Assembly (NCBI GenBank): GCA_944391115.1
Contig: CALXSJ010000017.1
Span: forward strand, 1 to 64,000
Direction of reading: 5' to 3'
DNA from: an uncultured Victivallales bacterium
GTDB taxonomy: Bacteria; Verrucomicrobiota; Lentisphaeria; Victivallales; UBA1829
Length of the DNA stretch: 64,000 nucleotides
Shown: piece by piece, positions 44,773 through 63,330 of the stretch
Layout of the letters: each line of letters begins with the position of its first letter
Numbering within the stretch: position 1 is the stretch's first letter
The notes under the pieces: model-generated
The model's database searches: none
What the model was told of the DNA's origin: nothing
What the model saw: the letters and a program-made list of their open reading frames with translations, nothing else
Position numbers and translations under genes: made by a program

Positions 44773-44824
44773 CCTGTTTTCATCTCCCGGCTGCAGCGTG
44801 TGTTTCATTTCAAAAAAATTTAGG

Positions 44825-44960
44825 TTGATACCGCGATGCTCTGCATCGCCAAAAATTGCTTCGTGCAGGACTCTCAGTCCTGCCGCGGTCCAGCTGCGTA
44901 AGCTGGTCGCCGGAGGCGAAATCCCCAATACCGCGCATGCTTGCATCGCGGTAATTTATT
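44825..44960. repeat. Dispersed structured repeat, copy C (complete)
   Basis: The most regular copy. Its outer ends are inverted repeats: ACCGCGATGC (44830-44839) and GCATCGCGGT (44943-44952). Inside are hairpins CGATGC-TCT-GCATCG, CAGGACTCTCAGTCCTG, CCAGCT-GCGTA-AGCTGG, and a terminal one CCGCGCATGC-TT-GCATCGCGG with one bulged C. The core CCGGAGGCGAAATCCCC is single-stranded in this model. It lies between rph and the lipid kinase-like gene. Confidence 0.88.
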
Positions 44961-56782: not shown

Positions 56783-56859
56783 GCACCCGTAGCTCAATTG
56801 GATAGAGCGTCTGGCTACGGACCAGAAGGTTGCAGGTTCAAGTCCTACCGGGTGCACCA
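56783..56859 (+). tRNA. tRNA-Arg (ACG)
   Basis: A 77-base cloverleaf. The acceptor GCACCCG pairs with CGGGTGC, discriminator A, CCA encoded. The anticodon stem TCTGG/CCAGA holds the loop CTACGGA with anticodon ACG. The T arm is GCAGG-TTCAAGT-CCTAC (a standard 5-bp stem). The sequence to its right changes to a different, partly AT-rich composition and mobile-element genes, so its 3' end is a likely integration site. Confidence 0.95.
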
Positions 56860-57818: not shown

Positions 57819-59234
57819 TTGAATAGTAATCAAACAAGCAATATGGAAGAACTAATTCGTGATTTAGAGAACAGATATGATGGTTACCTTATTTTTTCGA
57901 ATTCAACAGGCGTTTTACAGGCATTGAACGAACAATTCTTTGCAGAATACTATCTGCTGAAGCATTATCTGATATTTGAACCTGCGGAAACAAGATTCTA
58001 TCAGTATGCACCTCAAAGCGGACTTTGGCAGTATGTAAGCGAATCTTGGCTGATTGAGCAAATTACGCAGGAAGTGAGGGATTTTCTGTTATCGCGGGAA
58101 ATCCCCGATCATTTGGCAACCTATCCATTCAACAAAAAGGTGATGCTAGTCTTAAAAGGCAAATGCGAAAAGCGAGGTTTCTTTCAACTGCCTTCAAATG
58201 GTCATCGCGTTCACTGTGCGAATGGCGTTCTGGAATACAATGCACAGAATTCGTCATGGGAAATGCGGCCCTTCTCGCCGGAGGACCGTTCCCGGAATCG
58301 CTCGGAAATCGTCTATGATCCTGCAGCTCAAGCCCCAAAGTTTCTGGAGCAATTACTTCGTCCGGCCATGGATGAGGATGACATCCGTTTACTTCAGCTC
58401 TATGTCGGGCAATGTCTCTTGAAGGAGAATATCTCTCAGAAATTCCTGCTTATCACCGGCACTGCCGGTTCCGGGAAGAGTTCGCTGGTTAATGTCATCG
58501 AACGGCTCATCAACCCTGAGAACTGCACGGAGCTCCGGGCGGAGCATCTGAACGGCCGCTTCGAGAACAGCCGCTTTGTAGGGAAAACGCTGCTGACCGG
58601 AAAAGATGTGAAAGCAGGCTTTCTGGATACCCGTGGAGCATCCATGCTGAAAGCTCTGACAGGGAAAGACACCCTGACAACAGAGTTCAAACATTCCAAC
58701 GAGACCATAGACATTACGGGAAACTTCAACGTCATCATTACGAGCAATTCAACGCTTCATGTCCGGCTGGAAAATGATGCTCCGGCTTGGAAGCGGCGTA
58801 TGCTCTGGATCCAATACAATAATCCGCCGCCGAAACATCCGGTCGAAAATTTCGACCGCCTTTTGATTGAGACAGAAGGCAGCGGCATTTTGAACTGGGC
58901 TCTGGATGGAGCGAAGCAGTTGCTTATGCAGAAGGGTAAAATCCATTTATCACCTGCACAGGAACAGCGAATTGATGAATTGCTGGCGGAAACAGATTCC
59001 CTTCGGCTGTTCGTCAAAGAAGAAGTGAAGAAAATTCCGGGAAGCTCGATTTCAACCCGTGAACTTTGGCAGAAATTCTGCGGTTACTGCGTGAAACATG
59101 AGTACGACGCCATCCCGAAACAACGGTTTCAGCGTATGCTGCCGGATATCATGAGTCAGGTGCATCATGTCACGTTGCGACATGATATCCCAAGACACGG
59201 CACAACGGTCCGTGGTTATCTGAATATCGGATAA
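57819..59234 (+). CDS. SF3 helicase / phage-type primase C-terminal protein
   Basis: A 471-residue D5-like replication protein. The N-terminal third carries a D5_N-like region. Walker A is GTAGSGKSS (about residue 216), Walker B-like residues sit in the GRFENSRFVGKTLLTGKD region, sensor motif in NFNVIITSNSTL, and a helical C-terminus ends in a winged-helix-like part. It probably opens the element's origin. The start is TTG at 57819, because AGGAG lies eight bases upstream; an ATG eight codons later lacks a site. The gene is clearly lower in GC than the chromosome. Confidence 0.85.
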   Translation: MNSNQTSNMEELIRDLENRYDGYLIFSNSTGVLQALNEQFFAEYYLLKHYLIFEPAETRFYQYAPQSGLWQYVSESWLIEQITQEVRDFLLSREIPDHLATYPFNKKVMLVLKGKCEKRGFFQLPSNGHRVHCANGVLEYNAQNSSWEMRPFSPEDRSRNRSEIVYDPAAQAPKFLEQLLRPAMDEDDIRLLQLYVGQCLLKENISQKFLLITGTAGSGKSSLVNVIERLINPENCTELRAEHLNGRFENSRFVGKTLLTGKDVKAGFLDTRGASMLKALTGKDTLTTEFKHSNETIDITGNFNVIITSNSTLHVRLENDAPAWKRRMLWIQYNNPPPKHPVENFDRLLIETEGSGILNWALDGAKQLLMQKGKIHLSPAQEQRIDELLAETDSLRLFVKEEVKKIPGSSISTRELWQKFCGYCVKHEYDAIPKQRFQRMLPDIMSQVHHVTLRHDIPRHGTTVRGYLNIG

Positions 59235-59481: not shown

Positions 59482-59524
59482 AAAAAAAAAACGGAGGGAA
59501 GGCTTGGACTCCTTCGACCTCCGT
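59482..59524 (-). terminator. Intrinsic terminator of the element's minus-strand operon
   Basis: On the minus strand ACGGAGG (59524-59518), GAAGG, loop, CCTTC and CCTCCGT (59497-59491) form a hairpin with two stacked stems and a small internal loop, followed by nine T. Confidence 0.9.
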
Positions 59525-59700
59525 GATGCCTGTTTCCATCCTGCGCGGGGGCATCACTTCGCGCAGGCGGCGCTCCGGGATTCCCCGATACGGGGGGTCC
59601 CGGAATCTCTCCCTCTTCTGGAAGAGCTGGCGGGACCGGATTTATCTCTGAATGAAAAGTGAGAGTCCTGCACGAAGCTATTTTTTTTGAATAAACTGTC
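59482..59700 (-). ncRNA. Candidate structured RNA with H-type pseudoknot, 3' of the DUF932 gene
   Basis: Read on the minus strand, the ~200 bases after the DUF932 stop hold several perfect helices: GGTCCCG/CGGGACC (59637-59631 with 59602-59596) enclosing CTCTTC-CA-GAAGAG; the competing TCCGGGA/TCCCGGA (59604-59598 with 59580-59574) stacked on CCCCG-TAT-CGGGG; and CCTGCGCG/CGCGCAGG (59567-59560 with 59547-59540) interlocked with GTGATGCC/GGCATCAC (59557-59550 with 59530-59523), an H-type pseudoknot of 8+8 pairs with loops of 2, 2 and 9 bases. The terminator follows directly. No open frame fits. It could be a 3' UTR or an independent RNA. Confidence 0.55.
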
Positions 59701-59702
59701 GA

Positions 59703-60431
59703 TCAATTCCAGAGCTCGGGACGATTGCCGTCCAGACCGAAACAGCGGTTCAAGGCGGTGTAGGAGACATCCACACGCTGCGGCGTATATTTCTTGATCG
59801 TCTCCGTGAACGCGTTCAGGAGACTCCATCGCGTCGGTTCCAGAAACGCCTCGTGAGAGGGGTTCTTGAATTCCCTGTAGACCGGCACAATATCGCTTGA
59901 ATTGATCGCTCCGATCTCCGCTGCCCGGACGATCCGGCTTCTTGCCTCGTCATCGCTCTCCAGATACTTTATCTTCAGCTCCTCGGCAACATCCTCCAGA
60001 ATCAGGAATTCATTTTCGAGCGTCTCCACGGCCCTGTTCACCAGATCGCACAATTCGATCCGGGAGGTATGCCGACGCTTGATGACCGTCGTCCCGCCGA
60101 AGGCCATATTGCTGCACACCCGGACGGAAATCCCGGCTGTCAGTCCCGCCGCAAAGCTTTTGTCGTGACTGTTGCGGATGCCGATGCAGCGGCTCCATTC
60201 CGTGCTCGAACTTTTGTTGATCCGCATCACGCCGAACATCCGCTGACCGTCCCGGGCGAGACCGTACTGCTCCTCAAGAATCGTCCAGTTGTGCGTATGA
60301 ACGACCTCCGTCACAGCCTCGATCACATCGCTGTGCGGAACCGGCTTCCAGCTCGCGGTCGCTTCTGGCGTCGGAACCAGCGCGATCTCATCGCGGCCGA
60401 CGAACTTTCCTTCACACATCATCAATCCCAT
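59703..60431 (-). CDS. DUF932 protein (phage/plasmid-related)
   Basis: A 242-residue protein of the DUF932/TIGR03299 type often found on phages and plasmids, function unknown. Blocks visible are HSDVIEAVTEVVHTHNW, GLARDGQRMFGVMRI, SRCIGIRNSHDKSFAAGLTAG and VCSNMAFGGTTVIKRRHT. It starts only two bases after the nuclease stop with GGAGG six bases upstream, so it is co-expressed with that nuclease. It is the last gene of the operon. Confidence 0.82.
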   Translation of the reverse strand: MGLMMCEGKFVGRDEIALVPTPEATASWKPVPHSDVIEAVTEVVHTHNWTILEEQYGLARDGQRMFGVMRINKSSSTEWSRCIGIRNSHDKSFAAGLTAGISVRVCSNMAFGGTTVIKRRHTSRIELCDLVNRAVETLENEFLILEDVAEELKIKYLESDDEARSRIVRAAEIGAINSSDIVPVYREFKNPSHEAFLEPTRWSLLNAFTETIKKYTPQRVDVSYTALNRCFGLDGNRPELWN

Positions 60432-60433
60432 AA

Positions 60434-61222
60434 CTACCTCCAGTTTTTGCAACGATTTTTATACGGACACTCCGCACAGGCGAAGCTTGTTTCGTTCGGC
60501 AGAAACACGCCCTTGTCCACCGCGTCCTGCACCTGCGCCGCCAGCGACTCGAACCGCTGAAATGCGGTCTCATCGCGGCAGGTGTAGTGCGTTTCGCAGA
60601 CAGGATTCTTTGCTTTGGTAATCACATCGAACCGGAAAAGCGGCGTCGTTCCGTTCAACTTCTCGTAGGCATACGAAAAGATGGTTGCCTGCAAATCGCG
60701 GTCGGCTTTCCCGGCGGGCCAACGGTTTGCGGACGTTTTCCAGTCCACAATGCAGACATCACGCCCGTCCTGAACCAGTAAATCCCATTCGCCGATCAGC
60801 GGCTTATCCAGTCCGGGGACATCGATCTTGAACGCCTGCGCGACGCCCTTGATCGTGTAGTAATCCGACCAGTTCGCCAGCGCGGTATCGAGCATCCGAT
60901 CCGCGAGCACAAGCATCGAATCGAAATTCTCCCCTTCCTTGTAGATCAGGTTCGGCGTTGCTTCTGCTTCGATTTTGAATGCCTCCGCGAATAACTCCAC
61001 GCTCTCCTGATGCGTCAGCGAGCTTCCCATTACGCACTCCCATGCCTGCGCGGTCAATACCGCATGAAACGCTTTGCCGAACGGGAAACAAGCTGAAGTC
61101 CGTTCGATCTCAGCCTGTTCCACGTAACGGAAAAAGTATTGCAGCTGACAGATGTTGAGATAGGTGTTGAGCGCCGAATACGACCAGTGCGGATCCTTCC
61201 AAAGTTCGTCGATGGTTGCCAT
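60434..61222 (-). CDS. PD-(D/E)XK nuclease, Cas4/RecB-like
   Basis: A 262-residue protein with a nuclease core IGEWDLLVQDGRDVCIVDWKTS, in which Asp, and Asp-x-Lys (DWK) are the catalytic set. RDLQATIFSYAYEKLN is the helix with the Gln of the QxxxY motif. Cys25 (NICQLQYFFRY) and three C-terminal Cys (CAECPYKNRC) can bind a 4Fe-4S cluster as in Cas4/AddB. It probably resects DNA ends for recombination of the element. The start overlaps the preceding stop by one base (TGATG). No CRISPR array or cas1/2 is near, so a CRISPR role is unlikely. Confidence 0.85.
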   Translation of the reverse strand: MATIDELWKDPHWSYSALNTYLNICQLQYFFRYVEQAEIERTSACFPFGKAFHAVLTAQAWECVMGSSLTHQESVELFAEAFKIEAEATPNLIYKEGENFDSMLVLADRMLDTALANWSDYYTIKGVAQAFKIDVPGLDKPLIGEWDLLVQDGRDVCIVDWKTSANRWPAGKADRDLQATIFSYAYEKLNGTTPLFRFDVITKAKNPVCETHYTCRDETAFQRFESLAAQVQDAVDKGVFLPNETSFACAECPYKNRCKNWR

Positions 61223-61653
61223 CACGCCGCCCTCCATTCGTTGATCTGATTGGAACACTGCTGACGGGACAGCTGACGCACATCCGGAACCTGGAACCGT
61301 GCCGCGATCTGCTGCGGAGTCACTCCACGCTGCCTCGCGAGATCAAGCAGATACGAGAGCTGTTTCGGACTCGCCGGACTGTCGCTTTGACGATCTCCAG
61401 CTCTCCGGCCCTGCGGAGCATTTTTCACTCCGTTTGAAACCGGATAAGTGTCGTAACTGCGGGGATCATTTCCATGCAGTTCCGCTTCGACCGAATTCCG
61501 CACGAGATCGAACGTCTCATGAATCCGCGCTTGCAGCTGCTCCTGTGTGAGGCCGTCCGGAAGTTCGACCTCGACTGACGCATGATAGCTCTGGCTCGAA
61601 TACTCTTCCCCTGCGGGAACCTTCTTCGAATACGACGCATTGAGTTTCAACAT
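61222..61653 (-). CDS. Element protein with C-terminal small helical domain, function unknown
   Basis: A 143-residue protein. The first ~70 residues (KLNASYSKKVPAGEEYSSQS, VEVELPDGLTQEQLQARIHE) form an alpha/beta fold often encoded beside phage recombination nucleases. The last ~45 (SPKQLSYLLDLARQRGVTPQ) are a helical module that occurs at the end of many phage recombination and single-strand DNA proteins. It begins the nuclease-DUF932 operon. AAGGAGG at seven bases sets the start at 61653. A single-strand-annealing or DNA-end role is inferred from context only. Confidence 0.6.
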   Translation of the reverse strand: MLKLNASYSKKVPAGEEYSSQSYHASVEVELPDGLTQEQLQARIHETFDLVRNSVEAELHGNDPRSYDTYPVSNGVKNAPQGRRAGDRQSDSPASPKQLSYLLDLARQRGVTPQQIAARFQVPDVRQLSRQQCSNQINEWRAA

Positions 61654-61670
61654 AACAACCTCCTTCTTTT

Positions 61671-61717
61671 TCAACAAAAGAAGCCCGACAGAGGAAAACA
61701 TCTCTGCGAGCCTCAAA
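61671..61717 (-). promoter_or_regulatory. Leader hairpin with T-run before the nuclease operon
   Basis: On the minus strand GCTCG-CAGAG, an 8-base loop and CTCTG-TCGGGC form a ten-pair stem with one G-T pair, followed by TTCTTTTG. It lies in the leader, 20-odd bases before the ribosome binding site, so it could attenuate the operon. Confidence 0.45.
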
Positions 61718-61759
61718 AAATCAGAAAGTGGGGAGTTGGGTGAGCAGCCTCCCACACGC

Positions 61760-61814
61760 TATAGGAAACCTAAATATTATAGGATAAAATAGGTATATAA
61801 ATAGGTTTCCTATA
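61760..61814. promoter_or_regulatory. AT-rich dyad around a consensus -10 box (operator or origin)
   Basis: TATAGGAAACCTA (61760-61772) and TAGGTTTCCTATA (61802-61814) form a perfect 13-bp inverted repeat. Between the arms, on the minus strand, lies TATAAT (61781-61776). TATAGG recurs at 61779 and 61811, and ATAGG at 61820, giving an iteron-like pattern. It precedes the 61653 operon. Confidence 0.6.
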
Positions 61815-61898
61815 GGAGAATAGGAGGAACTCCCCGTAGTCCCCACTTTTGCTTTGTTTCATACGTTACTGTTTCAAAACATGATCTGAAAAAACGGA

Positions 61899-61977
61899 AA
61901 AATGCGCCAGCATTTTTCTCGGGGTCAAGGGCCCTCCGGCCCTTGCAGCGGCGAAACGCTGGTCGTGCGAAGCACGA
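61899..61977 (-). terminator. Row of four hairpins behind the sliding-clamp gene
   Basis: Read on the minus strand after the clamp stop: TCGTGC-TTC-GCACGA (61977-61963), CAGCG-TTTCGC-CGCTG (61961-61946), CAAGGGCC-GGAG-GGCCCTTG (61945-61926) and AAAAATGC-TGGC-GCATTTTT (61918-61899). The last, with its A and T flanks, works as an intrinsic terminator in both directions. Confidence 0.7.
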
Positions 61978-61986
61978 AATCTCCCG

Positions 61987-63330
61987 TCAGATCGCCATTT
62001 TGATCCGTTCGATGGCACGTTTGGCGAGAATAAAATCCCGTTCCTTCTGCTTCTGGGTGATCTGGAGTTCTTTGACCTTGCGGGCAAGGATATTCGATTC
62101 ATCCCATGCGATCCGCAGTTTCAGGCGGAAGGATTCGACGGCGGAGTTGAGCTCCTCCATCGGATTGGCTTCATTTTCCTGTTTCAATGCAGTCGTCTGC
62201 ACAGATGGGGACACAACTTTCATTTCCTTGGTTTCCATTTTGGGTTCCTCCGTTTGGGTTTGAATAGGTTTGGGTTCCTGAGCTTTCGGCTGATACAAAG
62301 GCAGCGTGACATAGCGTCCCGTGCCTCCGGTTGCAAGGATCGGATAATGACCATCTCCAGACTCAATTTTCGTATACCCCTCCGACAACATGCGGAGAAG
62401 CATTTTCCGATTGAGCTTAAGGGAGAAATCGCTCCAGTCACCCGTGAAATCAGCGGCAATGCTGGTTTGCATTTCACCTGCGAGAATGTTCAGACACCCC
62501 GGATCCTCGCTCTGATACAACTCCACGGGATTGTGCGGCTCCTGCGCTGGCACATTCCTGAGAAAGACCGCGAGCTGTTCCCCGCGCTCCGGCAGAAACG
62601 ACACCGAGCGAACCAGAGAGTTTGGATGCGGGATGATCTGTCTCCAGTTCGGATAATCTCCCTTCAGACCATACGCCAGCCAGATCCAGTGTTCCGTTTC
62701 CACGCGGCACACTTTCCCTGCGCGGCTGTTCCATGTGAAGAGGCTTCCGCCTTCCTTCGTCCGTGTCTGCAGCAGGGCGATCGGAAGCGGGATCGTGAAA
62801 TCATCCACATTCAGCGGAAGCGGGATATGTAATAGCTCCCTGCCGTTCGTCGCCGTAATCCCTTCGCGGGAAAGATTGATCCCCCGCATGATGGCACGCG
62901 CCTCCTCCCGGTCTACAAGCGGAGCCACCTTTGCCAGGAAAAAGAGGAACTCTTTCGGAAGCTCGCTGTATGCTTCCTGTTCCCCCTTGCAGATGATCGG
63001 CCACTCGACGCTTTGCTCGTGCAAGAGGGTTGTCTCTCCGACGCGCAGAATCCCTTCTCCGTATTCAAGTTCCAGCGTCTTATTCCGGCAGGAGCGAAGC
63101 GCCATCCGGAACTCCTCGAAGGGGACAATGCAGTGGAAAGCTTCTTCCGACGGAGACTCCATCCGGAACGTGATCTGTTCCAATGGCGTGCAGGTGGAAA
63201 AACGGATTTCCTTTTCTGTCGCCTCAATTTTCAAGGACCGGAACTGAGGAAGCGACGCCGTCCGGCTGACCAGTTTTCCGAGCGCAATCAACGCCCGTTC
63301 CAATTCATTTTTGTTGAGTTCAAGTTTCAT
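61987..63330 (-). CDS. DnaN-like DNA polymerase sliding clamp homologue with C-terminal extension
   Basis: A 447-residue protein. The start MKLELNKNELERALIALGKL, followed by SLPQFRSLKIEATEKEIRF, has the look of the first domain of bacterial beta clamps. Residues ~120-370 read as further clamp domains (PLVDREEARAIMRGINLSREGITATNGREL, DYPNWRQIIP). About 75 extra residues at the end are Gln/Glu/Lys-rich and coiled-coil-like (KVKELQITQKQKERDFILAKR), which ordinary DnaN (~370 residues) lacks. The start overlaps the preceding stop (ATGA) and has AAGGAG upstream. It is much diverged from chromosomal DnaN, so clamp function is likely but unproven. Confidence 0.7.
   Translation of the reverse strand: MKLELNKNELERALIALGKLVSRTASLPQFRSLKIEATEKEIRFSTCTPLEQITFRMESPSEEAFHCIVPFEEFRMALRSCRNKTLELEYGEGILRVGETTLLHEQSVEWPIICKGEQEAYSELPKEFLFFLAKVAPLVDREEARAIMRGINLSREGITATNGRELLHIPLPLNVDDFTIPLPIALLQTRTKEGGSLFTWNSRAGKVCRVETEHWIWLAYGLKGDYPNWRQIIPHPNSLVRSVSFLPERGEQLAVFLRNVPAQEPHNPVELYQSEDPGCLNILAGEMQTSIAADFTGDWSDFSLKLNRKMLLRMLSEGYTKIESGDGHYPILATGGTGRYVTLPLYQPKAQEPKPIQTQTEEPKMETKEMKVVSPSVQTTALKQENEANPMEELNSAVESFRLKLRIAWDESNILARKVKELQITQKQKERDFILAKRAIERIKMAI

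Follow-up and report, generated by a model that had tools for sequence, protein, structure and literature searches.

We have identified a previously undescribed family of pseudoknotted RNAs in the Victivallales, a poorly studied bacterial order, where it is tied to a recurrent replication module. The RNA joins an H-type pseudoknot to a terminator and in most copies lies directly behind a gene of the DUF932 family. Covariation among homologues makes it almost certain that the pseudoknotted RNA is genuine, under selection and equipped with a terminator of its own. As to its role, we give about an even chance to attenuation in cis, in which the pseudoknot-terminator would damp expression of whichever gene follows DUF932.

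Structure of the window copy

In the window (the whole 64,000-nt stretch of DNA that was analysed), the RNA is encoded on the minus strand, where positions 59567-59482 comprise, in order, S1, AA, S2, CC, S1', L3, S2', the terminator hairpin GGAGGUCGAAGGAGUCCAAGCCUUCCCUCC, a G and ten Us. The 5' arm of S1 (CCUGCGCG, 59560-59567) pairs over 8 bp with its 3' arm (CGCGCAGG, 59547-59540), and the 5' arm of S2 (GUGAUGCC, 59550-59557) pairs over 8 bp with positions 59530-59523 (GGCAUCAC). Loops L1 (AA, 59558-59559), L2 (CC, 59548-59549) and L3 (AUGGAAACA, 59531-59539) measure 2, 2 and 9 nt, and the two interlocked 8-bp helices are exactly as an initial annotation of this DNA had described them. L3 is modelled as spanning the minor groove of S1; its sequence is not conserved in relatives, where it ranges from 5 to 14 nt.

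The last strand of S2 abuts the base of the terminator, with which it shares 0-2 nt across the family. The terminator hairpin itself (GGAGG-UC-GAAGG, loop AGUCCAAG, CCUUC-CCUCC; 59493-59522, minus strand), whose stem an AC/GU pairing can extend, is followed by the U tract at 59482-59491, and the stretch from 59522 to 59482 has the layout of an intrinsic terminator, a GC-rich hairpin and then a U tract. The initial annotation was right to place a terminator directly after the pseudoknot, although the T run at 59491-59482 counts ten rather than nine. Its region of 59482-59700 also took in, as roughly its first 40 nt (59700-59660), what is left of a dispersed repeat; this lies outside the RNA motif, and the structured part begins downstream of it.

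Evidence against chance

That this region is no plain 3' UTR, as had been proposed, was borne out by its folding energy, by a geometry scan and by covariation in both helices. The 219-nt region folds at -87.5 kcal/mol, compared with -65.6 +/- 4.6 kcal/mol for shuffled versions (z = -4.8; as low in 0 of 200), a score that counts nested pairs only and leaves the pseudoknot out. The geometry scanner is blind to sequence and looks for two interlocked helices with short loops and a hairpin directly after them. It was applied to 75 distinct DUF932 3' regions and 150 shuffled regions, and at a score of at least 17 it was positive in 30 of the former versus 2 of the latter; at 18 or above the counts were 28 and 0, and the window copy scored 21. 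The 30 positives are a minimum, because the scanner overlooks members with a 4-bp S2 or with G-U pairs in the terminator, which a covariance model recovers. A search of the 219-nt region against Rfam 15, whose families include STAXI, riboswitches and ribozymes, gave nothing at the gathering threshold and no match of note at E <= 5, and 13 homologous loci gave sub-threshold chance matches only. Rfam matches in the window as a whole were confined to tRNA and SRP.

Covariation and conservation of the pseudoknot

Pairs were counted in three successive alignments of homologues from other genera: the first included the terminator (14 sequences), the second was confined to the pseudoknot (19) and the last reached 28 once variants behind other DUF932 genes had been added. 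Two loci, L165 and L144, were left out of alignment A5; L165 was correctly read by the geometry scan. Among the 28 sequences, standard pairs occupy 93.6% of cells, versus 67% in shuffles and 30-45% when the partners are slid. Compensatory double changes occur at all nine pairs of S1, where a single position may show as many as six pair types. Every sequence pairs throughout S2 (100%), and 2 of its 5 pairs carry such double changes. The conserved core of its 5' arm, GAUGC in the window copy, is GGUGC, GGUAC or GGCGC in relatives, and that of its 3' arm, GCAUC, becomes GCACC, GUACC or GCGCU; the compensatory forms within the alignment are GATGC/GCATC, GGTGC/GCACC and GGTAC/GTACC, and the GGCGC/GCGCT variant of L180, which lies outside the 28 sequences, also pairs. 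G-U pairs are present in the alignment. Both interlocked helices of the H-type pseudoknot carry compensatory change, and the covariation check that the initial annotation had suggested was positive for S1 and S2 alike. The S2 type changes at least four times on the DUF932 tree, and thus does not reflect a single inherited event. Since the shape is kept while the letters change, we regard the element as a real functional RNA, and the U tract that closes most copies lets the unit be read as RNA.

Across the family, S1 has 7-9 bp, L1 ~4 nt, S2 4-8 bp, L2 ~2 nt and L3 5-14 nt. L1 is almost always 4 nt (5 in 2 of 36 rows) and L2 usually 2 nt (3 in three of the 36), counts that vary with how S1 is delimited; L1 of the window copy is 2 or 4 nt, according to whether the outer two pairs of S2 are included. 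The letters of the terminator hairpin are almost invariant in family f1, and distant members have unrelated GC hairpins instead. This rules out the invariant hairpin as the functional core, as those distant members keep the pseudoknot. In relatives with swapped hairpins the U tract is mostly kept; a few copies have a weak one or none.

The upstream region

An accessory hairpin precedes the pseudoknot in the window copy (UCCGGGA...UCCCGGA, 59574-59604, minus strand) and is followed by a conserved GCGCC. Here the initial annotation had seen a switch between two competing 7-bp helices, and both can indeed be drawn in the window copy: GGUCCCG (59637-59631) with CGGGACC (59602-59596), and UCCGGGA (59604-59598) with UCCCGGA (59580-59574). 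The switch is not conserved, however. GGUCCCG/CGGGACC is found in the window copy only and is disrupted in the three nearest homologues, which rules out mutually exclusive helices, whereas UCCGGGA/UCCCGGA persists in all three, in one of them as the compensatory CCUGGA/UCCAGG. By eye and with a simple script, relatives were seen to have a hairpin of different letters at this site, followed by GCGCC, and the block before S1 in family f4 types is usually GGYACGCC.

Distribution of the RNA

Covariance models R1, R2 and R3 were searched over the family, order, class and phylum. The order-wide search with R3 recovered 43 copies; these come from 24 of the 137 genomes searched and fall within two families. 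The phylum-wide searches gave no further member that survived inspection outside Victivallales; the carriers are gut and rumen bacteria. Three weak model matches (L094, L098 and L102) were read as coding sequence and dropped. The genome of the window has three copies (C17, C37 and C14). A DUF932 match lies 23-225 nt upstream on the same strand in 37 of the 43 copies, and a 38th (G005 C131) has a DUF932 C-terminus at the contig end. Four copies are orphans without DUF932 (G028 C1:177951, G025, G003 C254 and G129), and the copy in G121, whose contig stops 100 nt upstream, was not classed for linkage.

Presence and absence of the pseudoknot switch at least ten times on the DUF932 tree, which indicates an exchangeable junction module. 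DUF932 homologues without it mostly have the next gene directly or a plain hairpin, and some belong to other families. Retention of DUF932 without any pairing had been named as evidence against the RNA, and this objection holds in part: many homologues lack the motif, yet compensation maintains the pairing wherever the motif is present. A phage origin was rejected, as the hairpin pattern had 0 matches in IMG/VR and no phage record had a DNA match; DUF932 relatives in IMG/VR (25-39% identity) had no pseudoknot above shuffle level.

At one locus (L110, G016 C102), a single DUF932 gene is followed by two pseudoknot-terminators (675-754 and 854-915) separated by ~100 nt, and then by an ORF resembling a small membrane protein.

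DUF932 and the replication module

The RNA sits on a mobile replication module, in agreement with its earlier assignment to a mobile element. The module order recurs as a sliding-clamp-like protein, a ~150-aa protein, a PD-(D/E)XK exonuclease and DUF932, with the RNA directly behind. On the minus strand of the window, these are a DNA polymerase sliding-clamp-like protein (61987-63330), the conserved ~150-aa 'MLKLNASYSKKVPA' protein (61222-61755), the exonuclease (60434-61258) and DUF932 (59703-60452 as the longest ORF; relatives suggest a start near 60428). Together, 59703-63330 looks like a replication/recombination cassette, and its neighbours in various genomes include P4/D5-type primases, a PIF1-like helicase, DNA polymerase A and a tyrosine integrase. 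Mobility is supported by two 4.84-kb copies of the module in G045 (L193-L196), which are 98% identical at unrelated genomic sites and begin just before the ribosome-binding site of the clamp gene. An AlphaFold2 model of DUF932 (pLDDT 75.9) consists of a beta sheet and a long helix; it had no significant match in the PDB, and we do not claim that DUF932 is an annealing protein.

A tRNA gene (56783-56856, plus strand), a possible integration site, borders the module region and is followed by a convergent D5/P4-type primase-helicase gene (57819-59234).

Proposed attenuation at the operon junction

An SD and ORF start 66-106 nt from S2, shortly past the terminator and on the same strand, in 29 of 40 inspected copies; the other 11, the window's included, have no downstream gene within range, and in the window copy this gene has been lost. 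The downstream genes differ between lineages, encoding glycine-zipper, small membrane, dynamin-like GTPase or unknown proteins where present, and this variety rules out a leader for one particular gene. In the orphan L036, the pseudoknot precedes the same dynamin-like gene with a different gene upstream. The orphan L115 (G028 C1:177951) has on one side a non-DUF932 gene that looks by eye like a methyltransferase gene and on the other a dynamin-like GTPase gene, a family that also follows the DUF932-linked copies L108, L113 and L114.

As read from the sequence, the position, orientation, terminator and subsequent SD and ORF fit attenuation in cis where the replication genes give way to the cargo gene. 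Under cis attenuation, RNA polymerase running past DUF932 would transcribe the pseudoknot first and the terminator next, and most transcripts would presumably end there. The next gene, often for a small membrane or glycine-zipper protein and sometimes for a dynamin-like GTPase, would be kept low, and a trans factor might recognise the pseudoknot and set read-through or stability. Against attenuation stand the varied downstream genes, the 11 of 40 copies without one, the weak or missing U tract in a few and the lack of a conserved antiterminator: complementarity of the terminator's 5' arm to 60 nt of upstream sequence ran no longer than in shuffles at most of the 26 loci compared. With no antiterminator found, conditional control, if any, would have to act through recognition or stability of the pseudoknot.

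The main rival is a constitutive 3'-end cap, in which a pseudoknot stacked on the terminator stem shields the DUF932 operon mRNA from 3'-5' exonucleases and insulates it, without regulation. We consider it possible, though distinctly less probable than attenuation. Of the two neighbours, the upstream DUF932 gene varies less (it adjoins 37 of 43 copies), the structure persists in copies without a downstream gene, and the missing antiterminator suits a cap; but a plain stable hairpin, which is all that many DUF932 homologues have, would seem to suffice, and the conserved letters of S2 together with the GGYACGCC/GCGCC block before S1 suggest recognition. Recognition could take the form of a binding site for a factor that the element encodes. 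The simplest candidate is DUF932, which would gauge its own abundance at the end of its message and switch the element from replication/recombination genes to downstream cargo. We hold this only tentatively and think it unlikely; if true, the DUF932-sensing pseudoknot would make the junction autoregulatory at the RNA level, and the mobile module would belong to a new class.

A trans-acting small RNA, either a discrete transcript or one processed from the DUF932 3' UTR, is improbable. Although a structured unit ending in a terminator would suit one, as would the few orphans (G025, G003 and G129) that have no DUF932 beside them, the near-fixed place behind one gene on one strand would not, and once the invariant hairpin letters are gone in distant members, no conserved unpaired seed is left. 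Slightly less probable again is a structure of single-stranded DNA rather than RNA, serving as a recombination, replication or transfer site, which would explain cargo exchange. It would accord with the mobile replication modules, the often gained and lost junction with varying downstream genes and the two 98%-identical 4.8-kb copies in one genome; however, that block runs across the junction rather than stopping there, the orientation relative to DUF932 is constant, a U tract follows and G-U pairs occur. The initial annotation's suggestion of a ribozyme or ligand-binding RNA is unsupported and very improbable: pseudoknotted transcriptional riboswitches do generally have this layout, a compact pseudoknot immediately followed by terminator and ORF, but there is no Rfam similarity, no conserved alternative pairing against the terminator, no conserved unpaired core of ligand-pocket size and no metabolic or transport genes common to the functionally incoherent downstream sites.

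The junction RNA offers a direct handle on how these elements apportion expression to replication genes and to cargo, and on possible binding partners of DUF932. A pseudoknot fused to a terminator, with no antiterminator, raises the further question of how the former affects the latter when stacked on it.

Comparison with known systems

The leader pseudoknot of T4 gene 32 is a 5' leader that controls translation in the autoregulation of a DNA-replication/recombination protein. The RNA described here is likewise linked to a putative protein of this kind, but it lies behind the gene, and DUF932 has no confident fold match. Type III toxin-antitoxin RNAs (ToxI-like) consist of ~35-nt units repeated in tandem ahead of the gene for a ToxN-fold endoribonuclease. 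They share the order of H-type pseudoknot, terminator and gene with our family, which differs in having one unit and varied downstream genes; among the few downstream proteins tested (Pfam; PADLOC on four), there was no ToxN-fold or toxin-antitoxin match. The preQ1-I and fluoride/crcB riboswitches also place a compact pseudoknot before a terminator and an ORF. Predicted terminators overlap the conserved motif of crcB (Weinberg et al. 2010, PMC2864571). Here, in contrast, the two structures adjoin and have 0-2 nt in common, and neither an antiterminator nor a common downstream pathway was found.

STAXI is a candidate RNA of unknown function that consists mainly of a pseudoknot, occurs in two to three tandem repeats, often with UUCG loops, and lies near ssb, integrase, topoisomerase and antirestriction genes (Weinberg et al. 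2010, PMC2864571). Both are pseudoknot RNAs near genes for DNA-manipulating proteins, but ours has a single unit per locus (G016 C102, with its two, excepted), is fused to a terminator, is tied to DUF932 and has no Rfam match.

A dispersed repeat beside the RNA

A DNA search in 61 relatives showed that the reported region is a composite. Nucleotides ~16-41 of it recur in many places because they lie within a dispersed ~150-bp repeat, of which a shortened copy (59660-59700, minus strand) is situated between DUF932 and the RNA; a fuller copy occupies this place in G001 C13. The window also carries a complete copy at ~44810-44960 (plus strand) and another match at 1-74. The repeat has 53 matches in its own genome (G000), is also found in G001 and G003, and has no Rfam match. 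It consists of hairpin arms with a conserved three-hairpin core (GCAGGACTCTCAGTCCTGC, CCAGCTGCGTAAGCTGG and TCGCCGGAGGCGA) and is sometimes arranged head-to-tail in tandem (C19, C41). Several contigs start or stop inside it, and the repeat therefore seems to break assembly.
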